A model generated the notes under the pieces. The model was not told the DNA's origin and did not search any database. It was given only the letters and a program-made list of their open reading frames with translations. 64,000 bases of DNA from Nannobrachium achirus (taxonomy: Eukaryota; Chordata; Actinopteri; Myctophiformes; Myctophidae): the NCBI GenBank assembly GCA_963921795.1, contig OY997655.1:8932166-8996165 (forward strand). The letters run 5' to 3'. A program made the position numbers and the translations under genes. This document shows positions 4,745 through 63,052 of this stretch, piece after piece (position 1 is the first letter of the stretch; the number at the start of each line of letters is the position of its first letter).

Positions 4745-4816
4745 AAAAATAGCAGATATACAAGCTCACAGCGCGGCACCGAGTGCCGCGCTGCGAGCTT
4801 TTGATCTGCTATTTTT
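4745..4816. repeat. Hairpin repeat, class A
   Basis: A 72 bp inverted repeat with arms starting AAAAATAGCAGATATACAAG and a tip around GCGGCACCGAGTGCCGC. The right arm has a few mismatches (TTTTGATC in place of TTGTAGATC). Confidence 0.85.
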
Positions 4817-5175
4817 GAGAAAGTCGTGAAAATGTGTGCAAATCTTTGAATATTATGTATTTTCAAAGCGAACGTTTGTAACTCAAATTTTGCTTCTGGG
4901 TGGTCCCTGGAACTAGATATTTTGAGATGGGGGTCCGTGGCCAAATACATATCATTTTGGGGGTCCTTCACATGAAAAGGTTTGAGAACCACTGACATAG
5001 TAGTCTCTGAAGAACAGACTAACTGAGCTCCAGTTAAGTGAAAAGGACCTTTTCTTTGACGATGGCTATAGCCAGATTGCTGACATATAGAAACATGTGT
5101 TTTTCAAAAAAATCTTAGAAGGATTCAAAAGACACTTATAGAATCGGGTCAAAAGTCCAATTTTCGCGATTTTTC

Positions 5176-5248
5176 AAAAATAGCAGATCTACAAGCTCGC
5201 AGCGCGGCACTCGGTGCCGCGCTGTGAGCTTGTATATCTGCTATTTTT
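5176..5248. repeat. Hairpin repeat, class A
   Basis: A 73 bp near-perfect inverted repeat: arm AAAAATAGCAGATCTACAAG, tip GCGGCACTCGGTGCCGC. It forms the right subterminal hairpin of the P-type element at 4705-5303. Confidence 0.87.
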
Positions 5249-5616
5249 CAATAGTTAAAGCATAAAATAATGATAATCAATTTGTGTACCCGTTCTGAAT
5301 GGGATATACTACGATGCTCTCTCTCTCTCTCTTTGTTTGTCTGCTCTCTCTCCAGAAAACACATTTACACAGAACTCGGCAGCCCAGCATTAGAGAGCAT
5401 AAAAAAACATACAAACATGAAAAAGTAAAAAGACGCTTTTTTTCCTCTCTCTCCTGTGGACAGAGAAATGATACTGTAGTGGCTTCTTCTGACGTCGTAG
5501 AACCAATGAATTAATAATGGCGTTTTAGTTCAAACCCGTGAGCTTCACAGAACGAATGCATAATGTCATTGGTTTTAAACCACTTCTACTGTACCATATA
5601 TACTGTAACATAATAC

Positions 5617-5854
5617 TTTGTTGACAGGTGGAAACCTTGCATGTTATTCATTTTTTTAAAACGCTTTAAAATAGTGAAAATAGCCAATCTACAAGCACAC
5701 AACAACGCCGATGCGAGGCGTTGTGTGCTTGTGGATCGGCTATTTTCACTCCGTTTGTGCAACACTCTCATATGATGAAGTAGGGCTTTAAATTAACAAA
5801 AAACATAGGCCTACACATTTTAAACTTGGAGATACAAGGTTTCTAACTGATATC
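5617..5854. mobile_element. T-type element with central hairpin, degraded
   Basis: The left end is TTGACAGGTGGAAACCTTGC and the right end GGAGATACAAGGTTTC; these are inverted copies of each other around GAAACCTTGTAT. A hairpin occupies the centre. Related copies lie at 7661, 13342 and 26852. No ORF is present. Confidence 0.6.
5674..5749. repeat. Hairpin repeat, class B variant
   Basis: Arms run from GTGAAAATAGCC to GGCTATTTTCAC, with CAAGCACACAAC and a GCCGATGCGAGGC tip. The stem reads CACAC where the hairpins of hAT-like elements read CTCAC. It lies at the centre of a T-type element. Confidence 0.8.
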
Positions 5855-6107
5855 ATGAGCCTATACTTACTTTTTTAAATTTTTTTGCTTGAAATTTCTG
5901 ATTAGCCAGCTCACGCCACTTCACGTTGCGGCGGTTGTAGATCTGCAATGTTTTTGACGAATGCATTTTTGTCCACCCAATGTTGGCCCATTGTGACATT
6001 CCCTCTTGCTATTGTGTTCAAGTAAACTGAACGGCAAATTGAATATGCAAATTAGTATTATTAGGCTACATTGCAGCATGTTGTGATTGCACTTTGACAA
6101 ACTATAT

Positions 6108-6708
6108 CGGGGGTCTTCAACGTTTTCAGGCCAAGGACCCCTTAGTTGAGGGAGAGAATTAGCAGGGACCCCCACAACCTTTTCATAGATTCCATATAGT
6201 GTCATCGTTTGACAGCACGATCATCAGTGTATTTTGGATTCATGTCAATTTGTGTTTTCAGATATTTAACCACCTGAACCGTCAACACTAAATAAACATG
6301 ACCTTTCACTCTGTACTTAGTCTGCTCTTTTTCCCCTACACCAAAGCTCTTTGCCAAAAATAGCCGATCTACAAGCTCACAACGCCTCGCAGTGCGAGGC
6401 GTTGTGAGCTTGTAGATCGGCTATTTTTGGCTTAAGTTCTCAGAATAAGGACACTAGTGTTCACATGGTTAACCCATTCAGGCCGGGAACACATTTTGCT
6501 GTTTGGGAGGGGCTTACAGTACATGTACAGTATGTAGCAACATATTTGTTTTGTAGGCTTATTTCTGATTTAGCCCTATTCTATAGCTTAGGTCTAAATG
6601 GGTATATAGAAAAGGAGAACGTTTCTATCACACAAAGATTTGGAGGACCCCCTGTAGTAACTCTGAGGACCCCCCTAGGGGTCCCGGACCCCCTGTTGAA
6701 GACCACTG
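6108..6708. mobile_element. Non-autonomous hAT-like element with 8 bp target duplication
   Basis: The ends CGGGGGTCTTCAAC and GTTGAAGACCACTG are inverted and flanked by AACTATAT at 6100-6107 and 6709-6716. An 8 bp duplication fits hAT transposition. The body has no transposase; its centre is the longest perfect hairpin of the window (6353-6431). Relatives are at 30124-30559 and 58472-58720. Confidence 0.85.
6353..6431. repeat. Perfect 79 bp hairpin, class B
   Basis: Two 39 bp arms pair without mismatch around a single G. The arms start GCCAAAAATAGCCGATCTAC and the tip is CCTCGCAGTGCGAGG. It lies near the centre of the hAT-like element at 6108-6708. The absence of any mismatch suggests recent formation or active correction of the arms. 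Confidence 0.95.
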
Positions 6709-6849
6709 AACTATATTGAACTTTGGATAAACTGTGGTGTGCTCTGTAATGTTGGCTGTGATGCTAAGGACAGAAAGAAATGATTGCACTGTTGTCGTGC
6801 AATCCCTTAACCCATTTAGGCCTACAATTATTGAATGCTTTAACTATTG

Positions 6850-6922
6850 AAAAAAAGCAGATCTACAAGCTCACAGCGCGGCACCGAGTGCCGCGCTGCG
6901 AGCTTGTAGATCTGCTATTTTT
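6850..6922. repeat. Hairpin repeat, class A
   Basis: Arms AGCAGATCTACAAGCTC and its complement, with tip GCGGCACCGAGTGCCGC. It is the left subterminal hairpin of the P-type element at 6811. Confidence 0.85.
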
Positions 6923-7181
6923 GAAAAATCGTGAAAATGTGTGCACATTTTTCAATATATATTTTTCAAAGCAGACTTTTGTAACTCAAATCTCTGCTTC
7001 TGGGGGGTCCCTGGAACAACATATTTTAAGATGGGGGTCTGCGGCCGAAAAAAATGTGATTTTGGGGGTCCTTGACATGAAAAAGTTTGAGAACAGCTGA
7101 TTTAGAGGAAGGATTTAGAAGTCGGGTCAAAGATCGGGTCAAAGATATTCAAAGACTTGCACTTCATTTTCACGATTTTTC

Positions 7182-7254
7182 AAAAATAGCAGATCTACAA
7201 GCTCGCAGCGCGGCACTCGGTGCCGCGCTGTGAGCTTGTATATCTGCTATTTTT
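7182..7254. repeat. Hairpin repeat, class A
   Basis: AAAAATAGCAGATCTACAAG arm with tip GCGGCACTCGGTGCCGC, almost identical to 5176-5248. It is the right subterminal hairpin of the P-type element at 6811. Confidence 0.87.
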
Positions 7255-7556
7255 CTAAAGTTAAAGCATAAAATAATGGTTAAAGTGGTTAAAATCTAAC
7301 GCGACTCGGGCGCGTTCCAGGTATTTGAGAGTTAATGTTTATCTGTCTTTGATGAGCTGTCAGACCTGAAGGCTGAACCCTATTATTATTATTATTACAA
7401 TCAACACATTAATTTGCCGGCAGCACTCCCAACGGGCCATGCAGGAACATGCAGAGACATTTAGACTGGCAGGGGCTGACATTTCTAAAGGGGCACTTCT
7501 GCTCTGATTTATAATTTTTCTTATTTAACCCACCCTCAACCTTTTCAAGTCAAGGA

Positions 7557-8125
7557 CAGGGGTCGGCAACCCAAAATGTTGAAAGAGCCATATTGGACCA
7601 AAGAAACTAAAAACAAATCTGTCTGGAGCCGCAAAAAATTATAAAAGCCTTATATATCATCGTTGTCGGGTGGAAACCTTGTATGTCAAAAACTTCGTTT
7701 TGTATGTATCATTTACAAAAGTGCGAGGCGTTGTGTGCTGTCTGCTGTTTTCACTAGTTTTGTGCGTCAGTCTTGTATGATGAAGCAGGACTTAACTTTG
7801 CAAAACAAAAAACATACAAATTTGAAACTTGGAGATACAAGGTTTCTGCCTGACAGTGACGATATATTAAAAGTCTATATTAGCTATATTAGCCTGCTTT
7901 CAACATGACTAAGTAGGCTACAAATACATAATGAGCATTACATTTAATATTTATTCTACACATTTTTACAGCATTGGAAAGCGTTAAGAATGCTTGTGTC
8001 ATGTTTGTCCTCCTACAGAAACCATATTAAAACAAAAAATATATATTTTTCCCTTAATACATTTTTGAAAAAGCTCCAGGGAGCCACTAGGGTGGTGCTA
8101 AAGAGCCGCGGGTTGCTGACCCCCG
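7557..8125. mobile_element. hAT-like element with CAGGGGTCGGCAACC ends
   Basis: It starts CAGGGGTCGGCAACCC and ends GGGTTGCTGACCCCCG, a clear inverted pair. It sits inside the P-type element at 7520-8455 and contains a T-type segment (7661-7861). No coding region. Confidence 0.65.
7661..7861. mobile_element. T-type element, hairpin half lost
   Basis: Ends CGTTGTCGGGTGGAAACC and GGTTTCTGCCTGACAGTGAC. The centre keeps only GTGCGAGGCGTTGTGTGCTG from the hairpin. It is nested in the hAT-like element 7557-8125. Confidence 0.6.
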
Positions 8126-8274
8126 CCCTAGGCCTAGAATGATATATATTTGACTGCGGACCGCCATCTCAAAATATATTTGCTCCAGGAACCCGGGGAA
8201 AGAAAGATTTGAGTTAAAAATGTTTTCTTGGTAAAAGATGTATTCAAAGATTTCCAAGATTTTCAATATTATTC

Positions 8275-8437
8275 AAAAATAGCAGATCTACAAGCTTGCA
8301 GTGAACCTCTATGGAAGTGTCGCCACTCCGACAATAAGAAGTCAATATCGGAGTGGCAACATGTCGTAATGGAGACATGTCCCTGATTGCAGCACTGCAC
8401 TTGGTGCTGCGCTGTGAGCTTGTATATCTGCTATTTT
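8275..8437. repeat. Hairpin repeat split by an insertion
   Basis: The left arm AAAAATAGCAGATCTACAAG and the right arm CTTGTATATCTGCTATTTT are intact but separated by extra DNA containing GGAGTGGCAACATGTCG, which is similar to GGAGTGGCAACACGTCG at about 40736. Confidence 0.7.
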
Positions 8438-8691: not shown

Positions 8692-9216
8692 CAGGGGTGG
8701 GCAACTTTGATGATGGAGAGGGCCACAATATTTCCACCTTCACTCCAGAGGGCCACATTGCATATTGCTATGTTCTACTTTGTCATTCTAGTATCTCATA
8801 CAATAGAAGCACAAATAGCAGATCTACAAGCTCAAAACGCATCGCGCTGCGATGCGTTTTGAGCTTGTAGATCGGCTATTTTTGCTGCTTTTGAATTGGA
8901 ATCCTGTTTTCTTTTTTTTTTTTTGGAATCCTGAAATGTAAATTTTGATTTAATTTCAGATGCATTTAGTTATATACTCATGTTAACTTTATGAACTTAA
9001 ATACAAATACATTGGACATAAAAAAAAGACATTTTAATACTACTATACTAGTCATTAAGCTACTAATATAGACTAAAGGAATTAATGCAGGTCATGTTTG
9101 TAATTGTAACAGATGAAATAAATAATATATTCAGAATTCCGGTATTAACCTGCGGGCCGCATTAAGTGAGGGTGGGGGCCGCATGTGGCCCCCGGGCCTC
9201 ATGTTGCCCATGTATG
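8692..9216. mobile_element. hAT-like element with 8 bp target duplication AGGTAGGG
   Basis: The ends CAGGGGTGGGCAAC and GTTGCCCATGTATG are inverted; AGGTAGGG lies at 8684-8691 and again at 9217-9224. The element is 525 bp and non-coding, with a hairpin about 120 bp from its left end. A second copy in the other orientation is at 16993-17684. Confidence 0.88.
8813..8881. repeat. Hairpin repeat, class C
   Basis: Arms AAATAGCAGATCTACAAGCT with tip ACGCATCGCGCTGCGATGCGT. Relative to class B, both members of several tip base pairs are changed together. It lies inside the hAT-like element 8692-9216. Confidence 0.88.
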
Positions 9217-9408
9217 AGGTAGGGCATGGAGAGAGGATTTGCGTTTCTTTTTCACCATAGTAAATTGTGCATTCATGGTCTGGAGAGGATCGAGGGTAAA
9301 AGGGCAGAGGCTCATGCAAGCCCCCTTTGATGTGTGCCGGGGCGTCGCACCAAATTCTGGGCCCCGGGTACAAGGATTCACTGTGGGGCCCCTGTGCTTT
9401 AACTATTG

Positions 9409-9481
9409 AAAAATAGCAGATATACAAGCTCACAGCGCGGCACCGAGTGCCGCGCTGCGAGCTTGTAGATCTGCTATTTTT
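9409..9481. repeat. Hairpin repeat, class A
   Basis: Arms AAAAATAGCAGATATACAAG with a class A tip; a few mismatches between arms (GATATA opposite TAGATC). Confidence 0.85.
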
Positions 9482-9732
9482 GAGAAATCATGAAAATCGT
9501 TGAATATTTCAAATCCTTCTAAGGTTTTTTTTTTGAAAAATCTATGTTTCGATGGCAGTGGTTCTCAAACCTTTTCATGTGAAGGACCCCCAAAATGGTA
9601 TGTATTTGGCCACGGACCCCCATCTCATAATATTTAGTTCCAGGGACCCCCCCAGAAGCAAAATTTTAGTTACAAATGTTCGCTTAAAAAATACATATAT
9701 TCAAAGATTTGAACAAATTTTCTCGACTTTTC

Positions 9733-9805
9733 AAAAATAGCAGATATACAAGCTCACAGCGCGGCACCGAGTGCCGCGCTGTGAGCTTGTATATCTGCTA
9801 TTTTT
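9733..9805. repeat. Perfect 73 bp hairpin, class A
   Basis: Two 35 bp arms pair without mismatch around the trinucleotide CGA. The arm starts AAAAATAGCAGATATACAAG and ends GCGCGGCAC. Confidence 0.93.
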
Positions 9806-9924
9806 CAATAGCTAAAGTATAACATAATTAAGGCCCCTCCACCTTGGGCCCTAGTAACTCAGTCCCACTTTCCTACCCCGGCTTGTGACGCCCCTGGATG
9901 TGTGCACGTATCTGACTCCCAGTA

Positions 9925-12715: not shown

Positions 12716-13341
12716 AACAATTAACCCCAGGAACGTATTATTACCTTAACCAATATTTTATGCTTTAACTATTCAAAAATAGCAGATATACAAGCTCACA
12801 GCGCGGCACTAAAAATCTTGACAATTTGCGCAAGTCTTTGAATACATTGACCTGATTCTATAGATGTCCTCCTTCAGTGGTTCTCAAACTTTTTCATGTC
12901 AAAGACCCCTAGAATCATATGTATTTGGCCACCGACCCCATCTCAAAATATCATGTATTAGTGACCCCGTAGAAGCAAATATTTGAGTTAAAAATGTTCG
13001 CTTTAAATATATATATATATATATATTCAAATAAGATTTGCAAAAATGTTCACGATAAAAAAAAAAAGCAGCTCTACAAGAGCTTGTATATCTGCTATCT
13101 TTTCCAATAAGTAAAGCATAAAATAATTCTAGATCATAAAGGAGTAGTTAACCCCCAAAATGACTTTTTCTATTGATTACTCATGCTATGGAGCAGGGAC
13201 GTGCTGGGCCCCTGATTCAGCCCTGGAAAAAGATTTGAAGAGGCCCTCGTTGCGCCCTTAGCGCTGCTGCTACTCAAAGATTTGCCATTTCAGATCATGA
13301 CAAAGTGACAAGCCAGTGGGCCAAGTACATGAGTTATATTT

Positions 13342-13592
13342 CGATGTTGTCAGGTGGAAACCTTGTGTAGTCCAAAACCGTTTGTTTTGTATTTATCATT
13401 TTAAAAGTGAGTTAAACTAGTGAAAAGAGCAGATCTACAAGCACACAACGCCTCGCACCGCTGTATGCTTGTAGATCTGCTGTTTTCACTACTTTTGTGC
13501 AACGGTCTTGTATGATGAAGCAGGGCTTAGCTTTGCAAAAAAACGTACAAATTTGAAACTTGGAGATACGAGGTTTCTGCCCGACAGTGACG
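13342..13592. mobile_element. T-type element, best-preserved copy
   Basis: Left end GATGTTGTCAGGTGGAAACC, right end GGTTTCTGCCCGACAGTGAC; a central hairpin at 13419-13490. About 250 bp, no coding capacity. It is nested inside the hAT-like element 13194-13741. Confidence 0.75.
13419..13490. repeat. Hairpin repeat, class B variant
   Basis: Arms AGTGAAAAGAGCAGATCTAC and GTAGATCTGCTGTTTTCACT; the tip GCCTCGCACCGCTG has lost symmetry. Confidence 0.8.
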
Positions 13593-14002
13593 ATTTACTT
13601 TGTTGGCCGCCTGGCCCCCAAAATGGAACGAAGGCCGACATTTTATTTTAATTTTTTTCCTAATGGCCGGCCTGGACCGGCCGGGAATGAACCGGCCGTT
13701 CGGGAGTTGCCCCGCTTTTCCCAATGGCCAGCACGTCCCTGCTATGGAGACTTGAGTTCAATGATATTTATGAGTTTTTGTTGCATTCCTAAGACAATAA
13801 TTTCATAACAATAAATGTACCCAAATGCATTTGGAATCAAGGAGGGTAAATTGACTAAAATCGATTTTTTGTTAATGTGACAATTTCTGACAAATACAAA
13901 AAAAGATATTATTGAACTCAAGTCTCCATGGCGAGAGTAATCACTAATCAATAGACACAAAAGTCATTTTGGGGGTGAACTACTCCTTTAATGGGTTTAT
14001 AA

Positions 14003-15795: not shown

Positions 15796-15809
15796 ATCCT
15801 ACTACTACT

Positions 15810-20460: not shown

Positions 20461-21129
20461 TGTCTCTTCACTGGACCACTATCGCACACGTTCCATTCCG
20501 TCTCACTCCGTCTCAGCGGGCATAGCATAGCCAGCGTGGAGGCGCAGAGGCGGCCGCAGATACCCAAGTGTGATCTCGCTTCCCTTAGATAAAACACTGA
20601 CTAAAAAACAAAACAACTCCCGACAACAAGAATTGCTCATCCGTAGGTTCCTTGTCCATTCACGGACAGGCAGCCCATCAATCTCCAAGCAGTCACCACC
20701 GTATTAGTCCGGTAAAATTAAGGCAGAGGTTGGACAAAATTGTATTATTTAGTTTTTCAACTGATTCTGTTAGGAAATTACTAGGTCTACTAGCCAGGAT
20801 AAAAAATCTACCATGATCTGCTCACTGCAAATACCCACAGTGGCCAAATCAAGTTGGGCTCCCATCCTACTTAAAAAAATCTGTTTTCACGTAGGATGTG
20901 AGGGGTCTAACTAGGGGTTTGTCATGATGCTGAATCCATTGCAAGCATTTGTTTTGCCCAAAAAAAACATTCATTGGCCCCAGAAAACGCCAACAAAAGA
21001 TGATTTTTTTTATGACTCATCACTTTTCATTCGTCTCCAATAGCGTTTGAGAGATACTATGACGATCTGAACAACGATAAAGTTATAGATATTTGCAAGT
21101 GCCATCTCATGTTTTGAGAGGGGTCCTCC
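20461..21129. other. Non-coding spacer
   Basis: No gene, paired ends or motif beyond the short duplication noted for the preceding element. Confidence 0.4.
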
Positions 21130-22140
21130 CTTACTATGTTCCCCAGGTTCTATGTTCCCCAGGTTCTATGTTCCCCAGGTTCTATGTTCCCCATGTTCTA
21201 TATTCCCAGGTTCTATGTTCCCCAGGATCTATGTTCCCCAGGTTCTATGTTCCCCAGGTTCTATGTTCCCAAGGTTCTATGTTCCCCAGGTTCTATGTTC
21301 CCCAGGTTATATGTTCCCCAGGTTCTATGTTCCCCAGGTTCTATGTTCCCCAGGTTCTATGTTCCCCATGTTCTATATTCCCAGGTTCTATGTTCCCCAG
21401 GATCTATGTTCCCCAGGTTCTGTTCCCCAGGATCTATGTTCCCCAGGTTCTATGTTCCCCAGGTTCTATGTTCCCCAGGTTCTATGTTCCCCAGGTTCTA
21501 TGTTCCCCATGTTCTATATTCCCAGGTTCTATGTTCCCCAGGTTCTATGTTCCCCAGGTTCTATGTTCCCCAGGTTCTATGTTCCCCAGGTTCTATGTTC
21601 CCCAGGATCTATGTTCCCCAGGTTCTATGTTCCCCAGGTTCTATGTTCCCCAGGTTCTATGTTCCCCAGGATCTATGTTCCCCAGGTTCTATGTTCCCCA
21701 GGTTCTGTGTTCTCCAGGTTCTATGTTCCCCAGGTTCTATGTTCCCCAGGTTCTATGTTCCCAAGGTTCTATGTTCCACAGGTTCTATGTTCCACAGGTT
21801 CTATGTTCCCCAGGTTATATGTTCCCCAGGTTATATGTTCCCCAGGTTCTATGTTCCCCAGGTTCTATGTTCCCCAGGATCTATGTTCCCCAGGTTCTAT
21901 GTTCCCCAGGTTATATGTTCCCCAGGTTCTATGTTCCCCAGGTTCTATGTTCCCCAGGTTCTATGTTCCCCAGGTTCTATGTTCCCCAGGATCTATGTTC
22001 CCCAGGTTCTATGTTCCCCAGGTTCTATGTTCCCCAGGTTCTATGTTCCCCAGGTGCTATGTTCCCCAGGTTCTATGTTCCACAGGTTCTATGTTCCCCA
22101 GGATCTATGTTCCCCAGGTTCTATGTTCCCCAGGTTCCGT
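21130..22140. repeat. 16 bp minisatellite, about 62 copies
   Basis: The unit is CCCCAGGTTCTATGTT, with sporadic variants (GGATCT, GGTTATATG, CCAAGG). Because the unit is not a multiple of three and lacks stops, all three plus-strand frames stay open for more than 1 kb. These frames are a by-product, not genes. Confidence 0.97.
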
Positions 22141-22212
22141 GTTACCCACTTCCCAGGTTAGCATTCACCAGCGTTGGCAGGTTAGCATTTCACCAGGTTA
22201 GCATTCACCAGT

Positions 22213-22252
22213 GTTAGTTTTACTGAGGTTAGGGTTACGGTTAGGTTTAGGT
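22213..22252. repeat. Degenerate telomere-like GGTTAG repeats
   Basis: GAGGTTAGGGTTACGGTTAG with further TTAGG words, following the AGGTTAGCATTCACCAG units. Similar tracts are at 24288-24366, 29348-29372 and, inverted, 29503-29552. Interstitial decayed telomere-like repeat or part of a common repeat; not a chromosome end. Confidence 0.6.
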
Positions 22253-26023: not shown

Positions 26024-26851
26024 CAACAGTAGGAACAATGAGAATTCGAACAAATGCCATGGCACCGTGAAAGAAAAGATGTTCATCGGACAGTTTTTAC
26101 TATGGTGAAAGAAATGCAAATGCCCAAAGTTTCCGTGCCATACCTGAAGGCAGCATTTAAACTCTCCTGAACTTGAATGCAGCTTCTTATATTGAAAGAA
26201 TTGTCCTCTCTGTGTAGAAATCTAGATGCTGCATGCCACATCTCCAGTATTCACTTGATTATGCTTAGTTCGGTGTGGTATCAAGCGTTGTGAGCTTGGA
26301 GGTCTGCTATTTTCACCAAAAGGCCCTTTTAGGGCCTTTTGCGAGGCGTTGTGTGCTTGTAGATCTGCTGTTTTCACTATTTTAAATCGTTTTTAAAATG
26401 ATAAATACAATACTGGCTTTCAAGCGGTTTCAAGGGGCACACTTGACCCTTCTCAGGGACACACCAAAGGTCCCCAGGCACAGAATGTTAGAGTCTAACA
26501 TTCTCTGCATTTCCCTGTTCCCAACAGAGACGATATATGCAGCTGTGGGGTTGAGCCCGTCTTAATTGGACAGATAGGAGGAACGTAAACATCTCTGAAG
26601 CCATAGCGCTCGGGGAGGATCTCTCCAACGTACGTCACTTAACGGCAGAGATTCCATTGCTCTGCTTTTTAGCATGCTCCGCCACAACTCCGCGCACTGA
26701 CGTAAACATTCACATTAGGATGATGTTATGCTAATCCTTCAACTGATTATTCTTTTAAGAGTTTATACAAGGTGTTATCTCGCGCCTGAGTCTTTATGTT
26801 ATGTTTACCGATTGCTGTGCTTTTAAAAAAATGTTTATCCCTGTATAATAT
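26024..26851. other. Spacer with decayed hairpin
   Basis: 26280-26372 holds two hairpin-family right arms (GTGAGCTTGGAGGTCTGC, GTGTGCTTGTAGATCTGC) around the palindrome AAAAGGCCCTTTTAGGGCC. No gene is supported. Confidence 0.45.
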
Positions 26852-27072
26852 CGTTGTTGTCGAGTGGAAACCTTGTATGTCCAAAAAAACATTTGTTTTC
26901 TGAAGTAGTGAAAGCAGCCGATCTACAAGCACACAACGCCTCTGGGTGCTTGTAGATCTGCTGTTTTCACTGGTTTTGTGCGACAGTCTCGTATGGTGAA
27001 GCAGGGCTTTGCTTTACAAGAAGAACGTACACATTTGAAACGGGAGATACAAGGTTTCTGCCCCACAGCGAC
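26852..27072. mobile_element. T-type element with central hairpin
   Basis: Ends CGTTGTTGTCGAGTGGAAAC and GGTTTCTGCCCCACAGCGAC; hairpin at 26906-26970. No ORF. Confidence 0.65.
26906..26970. repeat. Hairpin repeat, short class B variant
   Basis: GTGAAAGCAGCCGATCTACA and TGTAGATCTGCTGTTTTCAC arms with tip CACACAACGCCTCTGGGTG. Confidence 0.75.
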
Positions 27073-27404
27073 AATCTAATATTTGTATGCAGGGTGTGCG
27101 TATAGTATATTTGTCACTGTTATTTAGTCATTTAGTCACGAGCTGCTGTTAATCCTTTGCATCGCCGCAACATTTATGAAAACCCACGGACTCACTTAAA
27201 CACTTTCTAAATAGCGAAAACTTACAATGTGTCACATTACGATGCCTTGTGAGCTTGTAGCTTGGCTATTTCAAAGCGCAACAAAACATGAATTCTCTTT
27301 TAGTTAGTACTGTTTCTCTTCTCCCCTAGTCCCTCCCGAACATTTTTGTCTAGTTTTTTTTTTTTTTTTTTTTTTATCAAATTGATAATTGCGAACGAAG
27401 GTCG

Positions 27405-33930: not shown

Positions 33931-34276
33931 ATGCAGGTTTAACTATTGAAAAATAGCAGATACACAAGCTCACAGCGCGGCACCGAGTGCCGCGCTGCAA
34001 GCTTGTAGATCTGCTATTTTTGAAAAATCATGAAAATCTTTGAATATTTCAAATCCTTCTGAGTTTCCTTTTTTTTTTGGAAAAACCTATGTTTCTATGT
34101 CAGTTGAGCTCAAACCTTTTCATGTGAAGGAACTCCAAAATGGTATGTATTTGGCCCACGGACCCCCATCTCAAAATATTTAGTTCCAGGGACCCCCCAG
34201 AAGCTAAATTTGAGTTAGAAATGTTCACTTAAAAAATACATATATTCAAAGATTTGCACACATTTTCACGACTTTT
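33931..34276. mobile_element. P-type element fragment with left hairpin
   Basis: Left hairpin at 33949-34021, then the CTCAAACCTTTTCATGTGAA core, ending at a single right-hairpin arm near 34277 (AAAAATAGCAGATCTACGGG) where the sequence changes. Confidence 0.55.
33949..34021. repeat. Hairpin repeat, class A
   Basis: Arms AAAAATAGCAGATACACAAG and CTTGTAGATCTGCTATTTTT; tip GCGGCACCGAGTGCCGC. Confidence 0.85.
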
Positions 34277-37710: not shown

Positions 37711-37778
37711 AAAAATAGCAGATATACAAGCTCACAGCGCGGCACCGAGTGCCGTGAGCTTGTAGATCTGCTATTTTT
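37711..37778. repeat. Hairpin repeat, class A with shortened right arm
   Basis: AAAAATAGCAGATATACAAG left arm; right arm GTGAGCTTGTAGATCTGC; the tip has lost about 6 bp. Confidence 0.78.
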
Positions 37779-38104
37779 GGAAAAAGTCGTGAAAATGTGT
37801 GCAAATCTTTGAATATATGTCTTTTTTTAAGCGAACGTTTGTAACTCAAATTTTGCTTCTGGGGCGTCCCTGGAACTAAATATTTTGAGATGGGGACATT
37901 GGGGGTCCGTGGCCAAATAGGCTACATATCATTTTGGGGGTCCTTCACATGAAAAGGTTTGAGAACCACTGACATAGTAGTATCTCAAGTACAGGTCTCT
38001 CAAGAAAAGGACCTGCTGACATGGAAACATAGTTTTGGATTCAAAAGACACTTATGGAATTGGGTAAAAATCAGGTCAAAATTCCAATGTTCAAAAATGT
38101 TCAG

Positions 38105-38164
38105 AAATAGCAGCTCTACAAGCTCGCAGCTTGTGAGCTGTGAGCTTGTATATCTGCTATTTTT
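38105..38164. repeat. Hairpin repeat, decayed tip
   Basis: AAATAGCAGCTCTACAAGCT and AGCTTGTATATCTGCTATTT arms with tip GCAGCTTGTGAGCTG. Confidence 0.75.
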
Positions 38165-44628: not shown

Positions 44629-44774
44629 AGAGACAAGTCTAGAGACTTGTCTCAGTGTTTCTTAGCAGTTTACAGTTGTAGCATGCAACTGTAAACTCAG
44701 AGATAGAATAATACCTATACAGCCTGGCACCATTGTTTGTGTAGACTCGAACAACGACATATCTGTGACACAGT

Positions 44775-53099: not shown

Positions 53100-53500
53100 T
53101 AAGTAAAAGTATCAGTAGGCAGTAGCACTGCAAATTAGATATACTCTGTTACAAGTAGAAGTCCGGTATTAAATGAAGTGGTTAATGTATGTTTTGGACT
53201 ATTAAAATCAAAATCTACAAAGCAATAACTAAAGTTTAAAACATACATAAACCACTTTAGCCCTGTTATACCAAGGCTATTTGAAAATAGCCGATCTACA
53301 AGCTCACAACGCATTGCAGTGCGACGCGTTGTGAGCTTGTAGATCTGCTATTTTCAAACATTTTGTACTTTTACTTTTGGTACTTTAAGTACATTTGGAT
53401 ACCAATACTTTTGTACTTTTAATTCTGGACTTTTACTTGTAACAGAGTGATTCTACATTGCAGTATTGATACTTTTACTTAATTATAAAATGTAGGTACT
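53100..53500. mobile_element. Probable non-autonomous element around a central hairpin
   Basis: CTCTGTTACAAGTAGAAGTC (left) and ACTTGTAACAGAGTGATTC (right) are inverted, with AAAGTATCAGTA and TATTGATACTTTTAC outside; the hairpin 53280-53358 is close to the centre. Ends and target duplication are uncertain. Confidence 0.55.
53280..53358. repeat. Hairpin repeat, class B
   Basis: Arms TTTGAAAATAGCCGATCTAC and GTAGATCTGCTATTTTCAAA; tip CGCATTGCAGTGCGACGCG with few mismatches. The only well-preserved hairpin beyond 40 kb. Confidence 0.87.
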
Positions 53501-54525
53501 TTTGTAATACACTATTTTAGTGAAAAATAAAAACTTAAATAATATGCGCTTTTAATTTATTACTGGTATTGTATCTCACCTGCACAATCCACTATTATTA
53601 TCTGGAGCATATTTTGTTGTTTTATCACTTTATTCGCTTACATTAATTTTACATACAGGGATAGTACATTTTGTACTTTTATAGACATTGTTTTCTGGCT
53701 TGAAGCGAGCCCACAATTGTTCCGAAGGAACAATATTTTCTAGTTGCTCTTGTTGTGGCTGGACGGCTCTCTACACTTATTTACTTTTAATTTTATATCA
53801 CATTTGTGTAATATGATCTAACACAGTGCAGGAGCACTTGTTACTGTCAGATTACTTTTGGTTAAACCTGGGATCGAACCGGCGACCTTTTTGGAAAAGC
53901 TAGGTTTAACATCTCAGTGCTTTTTGAAAATACTCGGATACATAATTGCTTGCATTGGGATTTTACATGAAGCTGAGTTAGAATACCATCCTTTCTCTTC
54001 TTTTTCCTCAAGATTTCTCTCCTTTTCTCTTTTTTCTTCTCCCCCCTTCTTCCCCTCCTTCTTCCTTCTTCCCCCCCTCTTACGGTCCATTGTTCCCCAG
54101 CTTAGAATATGAACGAAATAAAAAGAAAATAAACAAAAATAAAAATAAAACAATTCACAGAAGGCTGGGGCTATTGACTGATTTCCAGAAACCTTGGCAT
54201 TCAATGTGTTAATAGGGAACCCCGCGACAAAGGATTGGCCGGGGGACGTCCAAAAACCCCCCCCCCTGCTTCCCCATTGGTCCGGGGGGAGGGGTTGTCG
54301 GCGGCGGGGGGGGGGGGGGGGGGATTCTCACAGGCGGACCGCTTGAGGGAGGAGTCGGAATTTTGGGGTTTGTCGGCGAGGGGAAAACCCCATTGGCTGG
54401 CGATCTGGCTATTATGGATTTTTTGAGCGGCCGATTGGCCTGCACGGTGCGGACGTTATTCCAACCAGTTCCTTTCCCCTCCATCAAGCGCCCCGGCTGG
54501 CCAGGGACTATGCCCCCAGCAGTCC
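53501..54525. other. Spacer with poly-purine/pyrimidine and G-run
   Basis: 53995-54085 is pyrimidine-rich and 54303-54324 a G-run. Proline- or glycine-rich frames here are composition artefacts. No gene supported. Confidence 0.4.
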
Positions 54526-55483
54526 AGGTCTTGAGCAGGTTCTGCTGGTACTAGTAGTCCAGGATGATGGTCTTCACCAGGTTCTGCTGGTACTAGTAGT
54601 CCAGGATGATGGTCTTGAGCAGGTTCTGCTGGTACTAGTAGTCCAGGATGATGGTCTTGAGCAGGTTCTGCTGGTACTAGTAGTCCAGGATGATGGTCTT
54701 CACCAGGTTCTGCTTGTACTAGTAGTCCAGGATGATGGTCTTCACCAGGTTCTGCTGGTGCTAGTAGTCCAGGATGATGGTCTTGAGCAGGTTCTGCTGG
54801 TACTAGTAGTCCAGGATGATGGTCTTGAGCAGGTTCTGCTGGTACTAGTAGTCCAGGATGATGGTCTTCACCAGGTTCTGCTGGTACTAGTAGTCCAGGA
54901 GGATGGTCTTCACCAGGTTCTGCTGGTACTAGTAGTCCAGGATGATGGTCTTCACCAGGTTCTGCTGGTACTAGTAGTCCAGGATGATGGTCTTCACCAG
55001 GTTCTGCTGGTACTAGTAGTCCAGGATGATGGTCTTCACCAGGTTCCGCTGGTACTAGTAGTCCAGGATGATGGTCTTCACCAGGTTCTGCTGGTACTAG
55101 TAGTCCAGGATGATGGTCTTCACCAGGTTCTGCTGGTACTAGTAGTCCAGGATGATGGTCTTCACCAGGTTCTGCTGGTACTAGTAGTCCAGGATGATGG
55201 TCTTAAGCAGGTTCTGCTGGTACTAGTAGTCCAGGATGATGGTCTTGAGCAGGTTCTGCTGGTGCTAGTAGTCCAGGATGATGGTCTTGATGAGGTTCTG
55301 CTGGTACTAGTAGTCCAGGATTATGGTCTTGATGAGGTTCTGCTGGTACTAGTAGTCCAGGATGATGGTCTTGATGAGGTTCTGCTGGTACTAGTAGTCC
55401 AGGATGATGGTCTTGATGAGGTTCTGCTGGTACTAGTAGTCCAGGATGATGGTCTTGAGCAGGTTCTGCTGGTACTAGTAGTC
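54526..55483. repeat. 42 bp minisatellite, 3' side of the ENDOD1-like gene
   Basis: About 23 copies of a 42 bp unit containing CTGGTACTAGTAGTCCAGG and ATGATGGTCTTGAGCAGG or ATGATGGTCTTCACCAGG, plus a local TTGATGAGG variant (55286-55438). The same unit in the same orientation forms 56674-57492. Confidence 0.96.
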
Positions 55484-55535
55484 CACGCCCCCAGCACCCA
55501 CAGCGTCCCCCGGCGGGAATCGAACTCAGGACCTT

Positions 55536-57515
55536 CTATTTCTTAAGGTATGAAGCTATGGCCATGGCCATGGCCAGTTTGATTATGAAATTAATTATGT
55601 CATTATCAGGGACCTGTATCATAACAGACTCTGGCATTTTCACCTTCTTATGAGTCTGGACAGAGACTCTGACGGGTGGGCTACTTTCCTCTTCTTCATT
55701 ATAACACCCAGGAAAACCTCCAAACAATTGGACGTCGTATTTGTAGTCTTGGCTGAGATCAACTTCCAATTCACGCACACCCATCTCTTGTATTGTTAAT
55801 GGTTGACGGGGGTCCTGCAGTGGTTCCTCAAAAGAACCTACGTATGCTATGGAAAAATACTTCTTTTCATTATTCTTGCCGGGCATTTTGTCTTCACAAC
55901 AAACCACAGTAAAAGACTTCCTGGGTTCATTGACTCTCTTAGTGTCATCCAGCCAAGCATCCTGGGAGGGTGCCAATCCGTTCACAAAATATCCTAGTTT
56001 TTTGCAATGTTTTTGTGTTTTGGTGAGTATTAGGATCTCAGCTTCTTTATTCCATTGTGTATTGTGACTTTCTTCTTGAGGCCGAATATTCGTAAGTGCA
56101 TGGGTACTCAATTTTGCCGCTGCAGTTTGAGCTGCATCTCTGTAGTACACATGTCCTTTGGTTTTATTCTTGCCAGTCACAGTCTGCCTTGCTTTCGAGT
56201 AGTCTACAAAAAGCGCCTGTTGCTTACCAAGTTGAATTGATATCTCTTCCTCAATTGATATCTCTTCCTCACTATACCTGTCAGCAAGTTGTTCTTCTAG
56301 GTCCCCGAGTCTCATCATATTAATAGAATGGCTCGGATATCCAAGCTGTGGTTCAATCATCCATGTTTTTTCCCTTGTTTTCTCTGTGGTTTTGGTCGTG
56401 TCGTAAGTATATACACAATATAAAGGAATTCTATTCTGTACGTCATACATGGTGCCAAATCTTGCTTCATCCAGATAATACTGACAGATAGCTTGATATC
56501 GGTCTCCCTTTGTATCTACGAGTTTTGGTTCGTAAAATTGGCCATCCGCCTGGAAGATGAACTGGCGGCAGTGAGAATTGAGTAAATTATCCACAACGCT
56601 ACAGTGAGCAGGACACATGGACAACAACAATATTACAGCCAGAATTAGTCCCAACAGCTGCTGCTTCTTCCCTAGTAGTCCAGGACGATGGTCTTGAGCA
56701 GGTTCTGCTGGACCTCGTAGTCCAGGATGATGGTCTTGAGCAGGTTCTGCTGGTGCTAGTAGTCCAGGATGATGGTCTTCACCAGGTTCTGCTGGTACTA
56801 GTAGTCCAGGATGATGGTCTTCACCAGGTTCTGCTGGTACTAGTAGTCCAGGATGATGGTCTTGAGCAGGTTCTGCTGGTGCTAGTAGTCCAGGACGATG
56901 GTCTTGAGCAGGTTCTGCTGGTACTAGTAGTCCAGGATGATGGTCTTCACCAGGTTCTGCTGGTACTAGTAGTCCAGGATGATGGTCTTGAGCAGGTTCT
57001 GCTGGTACTAGTAGTCCAGGATGATGGTCTTGAGCAGGTTCTGCTGGTACTAGTAGTCCAGGATGATGGTCTTCACCAGGTTCTGCTGGTACTAGTAGTC
57101 CAGGATGATGGTCTTGAGCAGGTTCTGCTGGTACTAGTAGTCCAGGATGATGGTCTTGAGCAGGTTCTGCTGGTACTAGTAGTCCAGGATGATGGTCTTG
57201 AGCAGGTTCTGCTGGTACTAGTAGTCCAGGATGATGGTCTTGAGCAGGTTCTGCTGGTACTAGTAGTCCAGGATGATGGTCTTGAGCAGGTTCTGCTGGT
57301 GCTAGTAGTCCAGGATGATGGTCTTCACCAGGTTCTGCTGGTACTAGTAGTCCAGGATGATGGTCTTGAGCAGGTTCTGCTGGTACTAGTAGTCCAGGAT
57401 GATGGTCTTGAGCAGGTTCTGCTGGTGCTAGTAGTCCAGGATGATGGTCTTCACCAGGTTCTGCTGGTGCTAGTAGTCCAGGATGATGGTCTTTCCTCTT
57501 CTTATCTTCTACCAT
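55536..57515 (-). CDS. ENDOD1-like nuclease-family protein with minisatellite-coded N-terminal repeat
   Basis: About 659 codons from the first ATG (57515). After ~10 basic residues come about 19 repeats of 14 residues (DHHPGLLVPAEPAQ type) coded by the 42 bp minisatellite. Then follow a signal-like LLGLILAVILLLS, and a domain of about 350 residues resembling fish ENDOD1-like proteins: YQAICQYY, RIPLYCVYTYD, WMIEPQL, ALTNIRPQ, RKSFTVVCCEDK and YFSIAYVGSFEEP. These belong to the DNA/RNA non-specific endonuclease fold. The usual RGH catalytic motif reads KGH (His at about minus-strand codon 56153-56151), and the Asn in LTN is kept, so activity is uncertain. A hydrophobic stretch near the C-terminus (FIIKLAMAMAIASYL) may anchor it. 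An 18 bp duplication gives EEISIEEEISI. The true start is doubtful: the usual signal peptide would begin at the hydrophobic stretch, so the repeats could instead be intron or 5' UTR. Confidence 0.65.
   Translation of the reverse strand: MVEDKKRKDHHPGLLAPAEPGEDHHPGLLAPAEPAQDHHPGLLVPAEPAQDHHPGLLVPAEPGEDHHPGLLAPAEPAQDHHPGLLVPAEPAQDHHPGLLVPAEPAQDHHPGLLVPAEPAQDHHPGLLVPAEPAQDHHPGLLVPAEPGEDHHPGLLVPAEPAQDHHPGLLVPAEPAQDHHPGLLVPAEPGEDHHPGLLVPAEPAQDHRPGLLAPAEPAQDHHPGLLVPAEPGEDHHPGLLVPAEPGEDHHPGLLAPAEPAQDHHPGLRGPAEPAQDHRPGLLGKKQQLLGLILAVILLLSMCPAHCSVVDNLLNSHCRQFIFQADGQFYEPKLVDTKGDRYQAICQYYLDEARFGTMYDVQNRIPLYCVYTYDTTKTTEKTREKTWMIEPQLGYPSHSINMMRLGDLEEQLADRYSEEEISIEEEISIQLGKQQALFVDYSKARQTVTGKNKTKGHVYYRDAAQTAAAKLSTHALTNIRPQEESHNTQWNKEAEILILTKTQKHCKKLGYFVNGLAPSQDAWLDDTKRVNEPRKSFTVVCCEDKMPGKNNEKKYFSIAYVGSFEEPLQDPRQPLTIQEMGVRELEVDLSQDYKYDVQLFGGFPGCYNEEEESSPPVRVSVQTHKKVKMPESVMIQVPDNDIINFIIKLAMAMAIASYLKK
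56674..57492. repeat. 42 bp minisatellite, 5' side of and in frame with the ENDOD1-like gene
   Basis: About 19 copies of the same 42 bp unit as 54526-55483. The unit length is a multiple of three and stop-free on the gene strand, so the frame continues through it. Two unit types (GAGCAGG and CACCAGG) alternate irregularly. Confidence 0.95.
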
Positions 57516-57657
57516 CTTCAGTTGGCGTACTGTCTCACCCCGGAGAGAGATGCTAGAGTTCACCTGGCGTGGCTGCTGGTGGACTGATGGAGACTCTGCA
57601 ATTTAATTAATTTATTCAGGATGTGATGTCATCATGATGTCATCATGATGTCAGCAT

Positions 57658-58454: not shown

Positions 58455-58471
58455 GTAGTACTGTTCTAGAG

Positions 58472-59430: not shown

Positions 59431-59759
59431 AAATCTTCCTAGGAGCAAGGTTGAACCCACTTGGATCCCACGTTTATCCCCTATGGTTCCCGCATAGAAT
59501 TGCCTAGGTGGGGCCCAACCAGGGCCCATGTAGAACCCACCTAGAGCCCACACAGGCTAGCCCAAGCAGCTCCCACCTGGGTCCCATATACATTTGCCGA
59601 GGTGGGGCCCACCCAGGGCCCATGTAGAACCCACACAGAGCCCACGTGGGCTAACCCACGAGGGACCCTTGTGGAAACCGCGGACATTCCCACATGGGGC
59701 CCATGTAGGGAAGCCCACCCTGTACCCATGCAGGACCCATGTGGGCGTGCTGGCTGGGT
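59431..59759. repeat. Degenerate GC-rich tandem repeat
   Basis: Irregular repeats of GGGCCCATGTAGAACCCAC, CACATGGGGCCCATG and CCCACGTGGGC-type words. Both strands read proline/glycine-rich frames as a consequence; not coding. Confidence 0.75.
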
Positions 59760-60032
59760 AGTCAATTATGAAGGGATTTCTAAAATTATTGCTTGAGAAG
59801 TCTACTTTGCAGAGAAACCGCCTTTGCGATTCGCTAATCACGAGATTTCACATCGCGATTTTGGTTTGAAAACTTTTAACCGTGCAGCACTAGTCCTTTT
59901 CTGCAGAGGAGGGGGCGGTGGGGGCCTTTTTGGTCGGCGGGGCCTTACGCAGACTGCGTAGTCTGCGTATACAGTCCGCCGGCGCTGCATGTATGGGCAA
60001 AAAAGGGATTCCGGGGAATACCCATATATGGA
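59760..60032. repeat. Minus arm of the inverted duplication, outer part
   Basis: AGTCAATTATGAAGGGATTT through CTACTTTGCAGAG and TGCGTAGTCTGCGTATAC to GCGCTGCATGTATGGGCAA, inverted relative to 49735-49947; then CCATATATGG at 60022-60031, matching 48478. Confidence 0.78.
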
Positions 60033-60151
60033 CTTTTACATTTTAACCAATGAGGAAGCAACCAAAACTGCTTTTGATGTTGTGGGCAGACCAGGTTAAG
60101 AGTGCCTGAGGGTGGGTAGGCCTACGCCTTGACCTTTGTTTGCCCCCCTCC

Positions 60152-61708
60152 TTATAAGTCGTCATGTTGGTTCTCTTCAGCCAGTACGCCACCCTCATTG
60201 CCACCACTCTCCAAGAATCTGGTAAAGCCCTCCAGGGTTCTCTCTCCGCAGTAGTCCATGACCTTCTGGACATCTCCCGCAGGGAAGAATTTAAACTTTG
60301 GGTAGCTGTGAACCTCAATCGACAGCAGTTCATTGGCTGTCATGTCGATCTTGGCCACTATGATATCCTCTCTGTCCTTGTACTGCTCTCCCAGTTTGTC
60401 CCAGACGGGTTCCAGTTGTCTGCAGAGTCCACACCAGGGTGAAACGAAAGCCACAAAGACATTCTTGGTGGGGTCAAAGGCGACTTCTTTGAAGTTCTTG
60501 CCCACCAGGACCTTGACAGGGTTTTTGTCCCAGTCTTTAGGGAGGTATTCGCTTCTGAGGTAGTCCTCGGTGAAGAGTGTGCAGAATTTGATAATGTTTT
60601 CAGTGGTGATGGCCTCATTTTCTGGCATCATGGATGCCATCGTCCCGTCTTCAAGCGCCCAGTGAAGGATGGTGGGGTATTGCTCCTTCTTCAGGTCAAC
60701 GGTCTCGCATTCATTCACGTCAGTGTCTATGAAGACAAACAGGATCTTGCCCTTGAAGCCTTCTGCTGCCTTCTTGAATTGGTCCATTTTGTCCACAAAG
60801 TCAGTAGCAGCCTTTGACATTAACATGAAGGCGTGGGACTTGACATCTGCATTGAAAATCCTATGGGCAGTCTGCTTTGAGAACTCGGTGACCAGAGGAA
60901 GCTGGTTGTTGGCCTCAATGAATTCCATGAGGTCGACAGCGGTAAGCTCTTCAAGGTCTCCATCAAAGATACAACGCTCATCAAACTTCCTGAAGAGGAC
61001 AACACCGTCCTTGGACACCCCTAACTTTGAGTACACCTCGTCATCAGAGGTCAACCCAAATGGGATGACCTCGTCTATGCCCTGATATATGACTTCTGCT
61101 GCTCTAACGAAGACCTTAGCGTCCTCAGATTCTGCATCCTTGAAGAAGCCAATGACCGCCATTTCGTTTGCAACCATAGACTCTGCCTGCACGACATTGG
61201 CCAGGTGGTTAACAGCTGGGCTTGTGCGTTTCTTAAGCCACTTCACAATGTCATAAGCCTGACTACCACCATAATGGTACTCGCTGTATGACTCCTTGTC
61301 TCCTCCCTCGAAGAACAAGATGGTCGGGATCATCGAGACATTGCGGAGCTCCGTCTCCGCTGTGACGTCTACTTTACCCAGGCGGATATCTGAGCCCTCT
61401 GCCTTCAGCATGCCAGCTGCCTTGGCATACTCTGGCGCCAGCTCCTTGCAGGGGACGCACGACGGGGCATAGAATGCCACCAGCAGGTTGGGATGAGTTT
61501 GAAGCGCCTCGTCAAAGTTACTCTTCTTCAGCACCAGGACGCCCTCTTCCTCTGGGATCTCCCTGATCTTCAGCAACCAACTGGCCATCAGTAGTGCACA
61601 TAGGACAAACTGTGTCACAGATATGACCTTGTTCCAGACAGAGGTGTCAAGCTGTATAGGTACTATTCCATTTTTGGGTCTTCTTCGATGCTTCCTTTTT
61701 CTCCGCAT
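60152..61708 (-). CDS. Intronless PDI-like protein with altered active sites
   Basis: 518 codons from an ATG at 61708, no introns. PDI (PDIA1/P4HB) catalyses disulfide exchange in the ER. Order here: very basic residues 1-12; hydrophobic segment ~29-47 (signal or type II anchor); first thioredoxin-like domain with CVPC (84-87); two non-catalytic domains (~170-390); second catalytic-type domain with WCGLC (426-429); C-terminus HDDL, similar to KDEL/HDEL retention signals. Conserved P4HB blocks include LAPEYAKAAG, VIGFFKDAES, FKGKILFVFID and GERTLEGFTRFLESGG. The cis-prolines (128, 470) are present. Both CGHC motifs are changed, the Trp before the first is Ser, and the buried Glu of VEFYAP is Ala in both, so redox activity should differ; it may act mainly as a chaperone. 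Absence of introns suggests an old retrocopy that later duplicated with its promoter. Confidence 0.88.
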   Translation of the reverse strand: MRRKRKHRRRPKNGIVPIQLDTSVWNKVISVTQFVLCALLMASWLLKIREIPEEEGVLVLKKSNFDEALQTHPNLLVAFYAPSCVPCKELAPEYAKAAGMLKAEGSDIRLGKVDVTAETELRNVSMIPTILFFEGGDKESYSEYHYGGSQAYDIVKWLKKRTSPAVNHLANVVQAESMVANEMAVIGFFKDAESEDAKVFVRAAEVIYQGIDEVIPFGLTSDDEVYSKLGVSKDGVVLFRKFDERCIFDGDLEELTAVDLMEFIEANNQLPLVTEFSKQTAHRIFNADVKSHAFMLMSKAATDFVDKMDQFKKAAEGFKGKILFVFIDTDVNECETVDLKKEQYPTILHWALEDGTMASMMPENEAITTENIIKFCTLFTEDYLRSEYLPKDWDKNPVKVLVGKNFKEVAFDPTKNVFVAFVSPWCGLCRQLEPVWDKLGEQYKDREDIIVAKIDMTANELLSIEVHSYPKFKFFPAGDVQKVMDYCGERTLEGFTRFLESGGNEGGVLAEENQHDDL

Positions 61709-61774
61709 GCTTCATCTGTAAACCGCTAAGAAACACTGAATTTTGGGTTCACTGAGACAAGTCTAGAGCCTGTT

Positions 61775-61782
61775 TATTTATA
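61775..61782 (-). promoter_or_regulatory. TATA box of minus-strand PDI-like gene
   Basis: Read on the minus strand: GTTTGTGGGTATAAATAAAC, 67 bp before the ATG at 61708. The same context precedes the plus-strand copy. Confidence 0.65.
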
Positions 61783-61803
61783 CCCACAAACTTTCTGGAG
61801 TGA

Positions 61804-61881
61804 CCATATATGGACATGAGGTGACATACATTGTGTTTTTGAAAAACCCTGTTCATTCTGGACTGAGATCACCATATATGG
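61804..61881 (-). promoter_or_regulatory. Two perfect CArG boxes upstream of the TATA box
   Basis: CCATATATGG at 61804-61813 (22 bp from the TATA box) and 61872-61881. The sequence meets the CC(A/T)6GG consensus bound by serum response factor. Spacing from TATA is like that of CArG-driven promoters, but the same word is part of a dispersed repeat, so function is inferred. Confidence 0.5.
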
Positions 61882-61909
61882 GCGTGATACACACAAAGCC
61901 ACTCATTGG

Positions 61910-63052
61910 TAGGGTTGGGACTCGTTAGGATTTTAACGATTCCGAGTCCTTAGCGATTCCCTCTTAACGATTCCGGTTCCTAACGGTTCTCTTAACGGTT
62001 CCAATATATATATTTTTTCATATTTTCTATCATCCATTATACAATTACATAATACACACAACTTAAACCATGGAAAATCAGCTTTATTAAATTACTGCAC
62101 CCATTTCACTTGGCTTGAACACTGTTCGGTTAGGTAGTCTGGCTGTATGCATGAGTCCAACATGTTTTTTTTTTATGATTTTTTTTCCTAAATAAAACAT
62201 GAACGATTGAGACCATTTAACAGTAGTTGTTTACATAAGCCTAATGGGCGTTCAAACAGTAGTTAGCAGTGATGTTAATAGGTTTTCAATGTAATGGGTC
62301 CCGGGTCCCAGAAAAGTTTTATGAGTCCTCAATAAAATGTGTTTGAGCGCTGTGAGCTTGTAGATCGGCTATTTTCAAAATGTTTGCCTATTTCTTATAT
62401 TTATTTTACAATATGGCTTAGTTTGAACTTAGAACTAGGATTTCTAAATACACTAGGCTACAGATACCCATTTAATTATATTTATATCACTGGGACCCCA
62501 ATTTATATTAACTCATTTAGTGCCACCCCTTTCACCACTAGAGGGCGCCCAGTGGCCAGAGAAAATCCCATAGAGATATGCTGGTATATGCAGAAGCCCT
62601 GCAGCCATGACTTGCCTGAACACTTTCCTTTGTGCATGACTGCATGTACAGGAAGAGGATGAAGTTAGCTTGAAGTTAGCTATTGGCTACCAAGCATTTT
62701 AGAAGCCTTATTTTCGTCAACTTAGCCATGATTAAACCTTGCACACCTCATGCATGGGAAAAAAACAGAGAAGAATGAGCTCTGAAAAATCCAATGCAAT
62801 CCAGAGTGGATTTGTGCAGTTTGTTCACAGCTTTCAAACAAAAAAATCCGATTGGAAATCCGTTCAGGCATTCTTGAGATAATCGCCCTTATGTTTTACA
62901 TGTAATGTAAACAAAAATGGCTGCCCTGTATGTTAGATGGGGTTGTATGGGGGTGGAACATGCAAAATCGCGATTGAAATCATGTTCACCAGATTTGATG
63001 GGGTCCAAAAAAAAAAAAAAAAAATTCAAAAAAAAATTTTTCCAAAAAAAAA

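Follow-up and report, generated by a model that had tools for sequence, protein, structure and literature searches.

The window, that is, the whole 64,000-nucleotide stretch of Nannobrachium achirus DNA that was analysed, contains reading frames, tandem repeats and short transposable elements. Positions 423-2708 (-) hold a LINE-type reading frame that includes an endonuclease and a reverse transcriptase domain. The frame at 44769-46091 (+) has thioredoxin domains and looks protein-disulphide-isomerase-like, and it resembles, in inverted orientation, the frame at 60152-61711 (-) (93% over 1.17 kb). A tandem repeat array at 21081-22217 is open in all three forward frames, and two tandem-repeat blocks at 54347-57602, open in several frames, adjoin a frame that presumably belongs to an ENDOD1-type gene, which it resembles. 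ARAGORN identified no tRNA in the window, and there was no Rfam match at gathering scores within it. Table 1 collects the elements that are the subject of this work, which are named by working labels (loci fetched from elsewhere in the genome have numbers beginning with L). One 69-base hairpin is found inside many otherwise different short elements, a distribution that is in part due to nested jumps that were copied along with larger hosts.

Table 1. Hairpin-bearing elements and their parts in the window. Position 7280 in the second P-type element is the end of the inverted arm rather than a defined right element end.
Feature	Position	Strand	Basis
P-type element, CCCATTTAGG ends, two hairpins, ATAT on both sides	4705..5303	.	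sequence
Hairpin 1 of P-type element 4705..5303	4747..4814	.	
Hairpin 2 of P-type element 4705..5303; its consensus corresponds to hairpin 1 in inverted orientation	5178..5246	.	
T-core copy with hairpin 5678-5745; hAT ends of a host not noticed	5621..5844	+	
F1 hAT-type element, CGGGGGTCTTCAAC end, 8-bp duplication AACTATAT (read directly)	6108..6708	+	
TTAA-bounded unit within F1; CCACCTGAACC at its left end, degenerate right end, hairpin 6358-6426	6270..6468	+	
Second P-type element, left end TTAA-CCCATTTAGGCC; hairpins 6852-6920 and 7184-7252	6811..7280	.	
CR hAT-like element, CAGGGGTCGGCAAC end	7557..8125	+	
T-core inside CR, flanked by ATAT at either end, degenerate hairpin	7658..7861	+	
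F2 hAT-type element, CAGGGGTGGGCAAC end, duplication AGGTAGGG (read directly), hairpin 8813-8881	8692..9216	+	
H3 hAT-type element, duplication GATGTGTG (read directly), P-like core, hairpins 9411-9479 and 9735-9803	9337..9896	+	
T hAT-type element, CAGGGACGTGCTGG ends, duplication CTATGGAG (read directly)	13194..13741	+	
T-core match inside T 13194..13741, hairpin 13424-13485	13338-13594	+	
T-core copy, hairpin 26912-26966	26848..27075	+	
Hairpin of P-type copy	33951..34019	.	
P-type copy, from hairpin 37713-37776 through hairpin 38105-38162	37713..38162	.	
Hairpin of family F7	53285..53353	.	

The module is a 69-bp palindrome composed of two 33-bp arms and a 3-nt loop. Its 19-base arm has 56 matches in the 64-kb window when up to four mismatches are allowed (26 on the + strand and 30 on the - strand). 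The search of the arm across the host genome, proposed in the preliminary description, returned 163,724 exact occurrences in 1.66 Gb (81,781 forward, 81,943 reverse), while the reversed-arm control had none on either strand. In the same 288 kb the arm was matched 205 times and two control motifs 0 and 2 times. A chance origin of the arm matches is ruled out by these genome-wide and 288-kb control counts. The arm patterns had no match in GTDB contigs or in viral contigs. A sampled set of 338 kb consisted of the window, eight 3-kb loci around exact arms and 25 stretches of 10 kb taken at round coordinates. It contained 190 module instances at up to five mismatches: 86 paired hairpins, 63 right-only and 41 left-only arms. 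The paired hairpins were exactly 69 bp long in 44 cases, shorter in 35 and longer in seven. Of 87 paired hairpins in the sampled set, 19 lie in the window; together with the unpaired arms there they agree with the earlier estimate of about 35 full or partial copies. Five hairpins folded with their flanks as single-stranded DNA each formed one long hairpin (-39 to -52 kcal/mol), and for each of the five examples none of 200 shuffles was as stable.

Of the 190 module instances, 49 remained without an assigned carrier. The target duplications of the carriers are of at least three kinds: 8 bp (hAT-type, with many different ends), TTAA (piggyBac-like) and ATAT or ATTT. At least ten sets of element ends were found among them, some nested in others, so that the "at least five" families of the preliminary description were an underestimate. 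Its three hAT-like ends are all present in the window, and its account of P-type elements with a hairpin near each end was borne out. Duplications of 8 bp flank hosts F1, T, F2, F4, F5, F6, F8, F9 and H3, with one base in eight differing in F5, one T copy and one F1 copy; those of F2 and of H3 in the window were read by hand. The corresponding ends are CAGGGGTCTTCAAC in F1, CAGGGACGTGCTGG in T, CAGGGGTTTTCAAA in F8, TAGGGATGGGACCA in F4, TAGGGCATTCACGA in F9, TAGGGCTGTCACGA in F5, CAGGGGTGTCGCAC in H3 and CAGGGGTGGGCAAC in F2 (by hand), and two F6 copies have perfect CAGTGGTTCTCAAC ends and duplications. No 8-bp duplication was seen around the one CR copy examined, at 7557-8126. A scan for an 8-bp duplication (one mismatch allowed) with 14-base inverted ends (three mismatches allowed) was positive for 16 of the 86 paired hairpins; its background, measured at 200 control positions distant from hairpins, was 14 positives (7%) and is not negligible. 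Two of these 16 hairpins lie in one element (L033), the one at 33951 in the window is a weak positive, and lone weak matches may be due to chance. F10 was dropped as a hAT family with CAGGGGCTGACATTT ends; this motif is probably not an element end, because the bases that precede it are likewise similar between copies.

Both kinds of transposase gene are present in the genome. At least 150 hAT-dimerisation and at least 116 piggyBac-type matches were listed among the best candidates scored, all of which pass the family cut-off. Four hAT loci were fetched and ends could be defined for one of them, L034; these differ from the ends of all hairpin-carrying families, and no arm was found in this locus at up to five mismatches. 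The autonomous hAT in L037 was ruled out as a hairpin carrier; a T element adjoins it. No good pair of TTAA and inverted ends surrounds the piggyBac-type transposase in L012. The piggyBac-type matches include a cluster at C2:71346413-71843994, which packs 16 of the at least 116 into 0.5 Mb; in 15 of these the open frame is 528-638 aa long, and the cluster possibly consists of domesticated genes. Domains of the same type also occur in very long open frames at C18:60345001 (2461 aa) and C1:82177671 (3951 aa). Locus L029 contains a 2.85-kb inverted repeat (1-2842 and 5573-8419, 99.5% identity) with arms about 2.7 kb apart.

Nesting was most clearly seen for the T-core, a hairpin-bearing unit of about 250 bp with ends CGTCGTTGTCGGGTGG (inverted ends also given as CGTCGTTGTCGGG) and 4-bp duplications, ATAT or ATTT. 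T, F8 and CR have about 250 bp around the hairpin in common, and homology stops at the unit's own inverted ends. The T element minus the T-core was used to look for T-core-free copies genome-wide. Among the five T relatives fetched, L054 and L056 read GAGTTAT-ATTT-ACTTTG, with a single ATTT, L057 has almost this sequence, and in L053 and L055 a deletion is seen instead. All eight F8 relatives fetched without the T-core have a single ATAT at the junction, with one base change beside it in L068 and L071. The T-core was therefore inserted separately into two hAT families, T and F8, and since their relatives carry single-copy target sites it behaves as a transposon with 4-bp duplications. Some of the T-core-free sites could be precise excisions, in which case the T-core would still be a transposon. 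CR is likely a third host: 18 of 45 alignment rows, whose bases were not read, span the site without about 200 bp.

A second kind of nested unit is bounded by TTAA. In several F1 copies (for example L007 and L009) the hairpin is flanked on either side by TTAA and an end resembling CCACTTGAACC, and the F1 (CAGGGGTCTTCAAC) family thus holds a TTAA-bounded hairpin unit. The pattern TTAACCACTTGAACC, followed after 20-50 bases by the arm, has 6,024 exact occurrences genome-wide, as compared with none for the control. The search for an empty site in F1 gave a single row crossing the whole query, which is a deletion, and half-matches may have outranked true empty sites. P-type elements have CCCATTYAG ends. 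Their duplication is not uniform, as TTAA is found on both sides of the L015 copy and ATAT on both sides of the copy at 4705-5303 in the window; TTAA duplications were recorded for P-type (L015) and for several units inside F1. H3 holds a P-like core, and no H3 copy without it was among the best 40 scored candidates. A generic scan for TTAA with 12-base ends was positive for 27 of 86 paired hairpins, mostly through an inner P-type TTAA, and for 15 of 300 controls, and was not used. Single hAT-like ends (CAGTGGTTCTCAAACC) lie between the two hairpins of P-type elements at 4905-4994 and 9556-9720, and the one inside the L015 P-type element matches the F6 end at 73% across 67 bp. piggyBac-like elements have C-rich ends. 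The TTAA elements were called piggyBac-like because of their TTAA target and their C-rich ends. TTAA is stated to be the piggyBac target in an excerpt of PMC2874221.

In F2, F5, F6 and F9, all of hAT type, the hairpin has merely a short palindromic extension, and no larger nested unit was found around it. The hairpins of F6 and F9 are of one subtype (ACATGC), and both have ATTGTGA as a short extension. In F6, 39 of 41 rows match a hairpin-free query across the junction. The 15 hairpin-free copies that were read have 12 different junctions, several of which retain short palindromic stubs; L038, L046 and L049 have the same junction, and so do L041 and L047. These copies look as if deletions had occurred repeatedly at the palindrome centre and some of the shortened copies had then been amplified, and the shared junctions may reflect an old hairpin-free subfamily. 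The six hairpin-free F2 copies fetched have differing, ragged junctions and also resemble deletions, and the best 40 scored F9 candidates were mostly filled copies of varying hairpin length with no clean hairpin-free site. A clean insertion site of the bare hairpin was therefore seen in none of these three sets. The mean divergence among the fetched copies that are free of hairpin or core was 13% in F6, 13% in F8, 17% in T and 21% in F2.

The symmetry of the arms was analysed in 45 modules of exactly 69 bp (39 distinct). Standard pairs made up 92.1% of the pair cells as compared with 86.4% in shuffles, and both members had changed in 13 of the 33 pairs (87 cells, as against a mean of 31.4 in shuffles), values that none of 500 shuffles reached, although these counts are not probabilities because the module sequences are related. 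The number of further pair types was not unusual (29 versus 27.4 in shuffles, with 113 of 500 as high). Arm changes are thus often compensated, and the symmetry persists while the families diverge. The T and P-type consensus arms differ at 8 of 33 positions, and the two arms of T are free of fixed mismatches to each other. The F1 consensus arm is 2-3 of 33 positions away from T, 1-3 from F6/F9 and 5-6 from P-type, so that hairpin similarity does not track the kind of duplication. Mean differences over 33 bases between left and right arms, compared with those between copies in groups partly defined by hairpin letters, were 2.80 versus 1.42 and 2.73 versus 1.44 in P-type (two fixed asymmetries each), 2.00 versus 2.10 in F1 (one), 1.60 versus 1.50 in T (none), 2.00 versus 1.00 in F2 (two), 0.50 versus 0.50 in F6/F9 (two copies) and 6.25 versus 7.18 in unassigned modules. 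These values are equivocal as to the re-copying of arms within copies, and the P-type mismatches, which are constant across copies, argue against strong recent correction.

Similarity drops outside the hairpin. The best 19-bp arms of ten exemplars show 0-2 differences in most pairs, and up to 4 for F10. Flanking sequence at a distance of 15 to 110 bp from the hairpin gave p values of 0.05 or more against shuffled sequences in 41 of the 45 exemplar pairs. T-F4 scored better than all 100 shuffles by way of an offset 23-base match; the values of 0.01-0.02 for F2-F7, F2-PB and F6-F4 and of 0.05 for F6-F9 and T-F2 are unremarkable given 45 tests. F1 and F4 both carry TTGGCAAAGA..TTTGGT beside the hairpin. 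A single common family for all hosts is unsupported, considering these flanks and the differing duplications; the two together do not amount to one family with homologous bodies, the outcome that the preliminary description had named as fatal to its claim.

We consider it probable that the hairpin is the central palindrome of several abundant non-autonomous DNA transposons, which became nested as carriers in hAT MITEs, after which the composites were amplified. According to this explanation the T-core and the TTAA-bounded units (ends CCACTTGAACC or CCCATTTAGG), which are also found within hAT-type miniature elements, inserted there, and hAT transposition would have multiplied the composites and so spread one hairpin through several families, as the copy number suggests. 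The presence of both hAT and piggyBac-type transposase genes was counted in its favour. The preliminary description, which regarded the pattern as out of the ordinary, had offered two options, a module that moves between elements or families that diverged from one ancestor and kept only the hairpin. The module does travel, into T and F8 with the T-core and into F1 with the TTAA unit, and this part is ordinary nesting. For F2, F5, F6 and F9 both options remain, since no larger nested unit was found there. The bare hairpin may have reached these families in a comparable way, with the outer parts of the carrier lost afterwards, or by exchange between hairpins. The symmetry could have been kept because the palindrome helps transposition or because each arm was re-copied from the other in progenitors.

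That the hairpin is instead a functional cis-element, a site for transposase or a host factor or a cruciform that pairs the ends, selected in progenitors while the rest of one ancestor diverged, appears unlikely. The arms are kept symmetric through paired changes, they are nearly identical among exemplars with mostly unalike flanks, and F1 and F4 have the same motif adjoining the hairpin, as would be expected of such an element. However, the carriers probably use different transposases because their target duplications differ, the T-core is nested in T and F8 as the TTAA-bounded unit is in F1, hairpin similarity does not track duplication class (F1 is closer to T and F6/F9 than to P-type), and the one hAT locus with defined ends lacks the arm at the threshold used. 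We are also inclined to doubt, though slightly less so, that the hairpin moves free of a carrier, either as filler in the internal deletions that form MITEs or by recombination at broken hairpin tips, with no duplication. The subtype and extension common to F6 and F9, with little similarity further out (p 0.05), would fit such movement, and central deletions, with 35 of 86 paired hairpins below 69 bp, speak for frequent breakage; yet breakage should lead to loss more readily than to gain, and neither a clear chimera nor a hairpin-level empty site was seen in the F6, F9 and F2 rows. It is very improbable that the bare hairpin by itself constitutes a tiny transposon, one whose inverted ends are its own and which makes a short duplication. 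TA borders the palindrome on both sides in T and F5, and three F6 copies with one hairpin-free junction fit a 3-base AAT repeat. The borders are themselves palindromic and carrier-specific (TTGTGA, AGTGA, GCCAAA, AGTGG), however, so that a duplication is indistinguishable from the palindrome, and the AAT case makes the insert asymmetric and is equally well explained by deletion between short repeats. Going beyond the nesting of carriers, we tentatively suggest that a non-coding palindrome might serve as a portable core that crosses transposase classes by nesting and by capture or exchange at breaks, with arm re-copying to keep its symmetry.

Angel elements and other teleost fold-back MITEs are short, palindromic, high-copy and hairpin-capable, and in this general description, with no sequence compared, the present elements are like them. 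Like hAT-type MITEs, many carriers have 8-bp duplications and CAGNGG- or TAGGG-type ends; unlike them, they have one hairpin in common among families with different ends. The likeness to piggyBac-type MITEs consists of the TTAA duplication and the transposase genes in the genome, and the difference of ends unmatched to an autonomous copy and of one P-type copy flanked by ATAT. The arm letters had no occurrence in the open-access literature searched, and no report of such a common hairpin was found in the literature on palindromic, nested and chimeric or composite MITEs and on Tol2/Angel. The closest precedent found is MER6/MER6A, a Tc1/mariner MITE in which, according to an excerpt of PMC6887750, the V-SINE conserved domain is embedded. 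In both cases a foreign conserved internal module would ride on the amplification of a non-autonomous DNA transposon. As far as that excerpt goes, the MER6 domain is SINE-derived and belongs to one MITE lineage, whereas the module described here is a palindrome that occurs in many MITE families, whose target duplications are of at least three kinds and which it reached partly by nested insertion.

With more than 160,000 exact arms, the hairpin is a very high-copy natural case of inner MITE parts common to several families, and the T-core-free sites reveal one route by which such inner parts spread. A portable palindrome, if the suggestion is true, would be the DNA-transposon counterpart of the conserved cores common to unrelated SINEs. 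Should the bare hairpin prove to be mobile or under selection as well, it would provide a handle on the role of the MITE centre and on how such elements reach enormous copy numbers.
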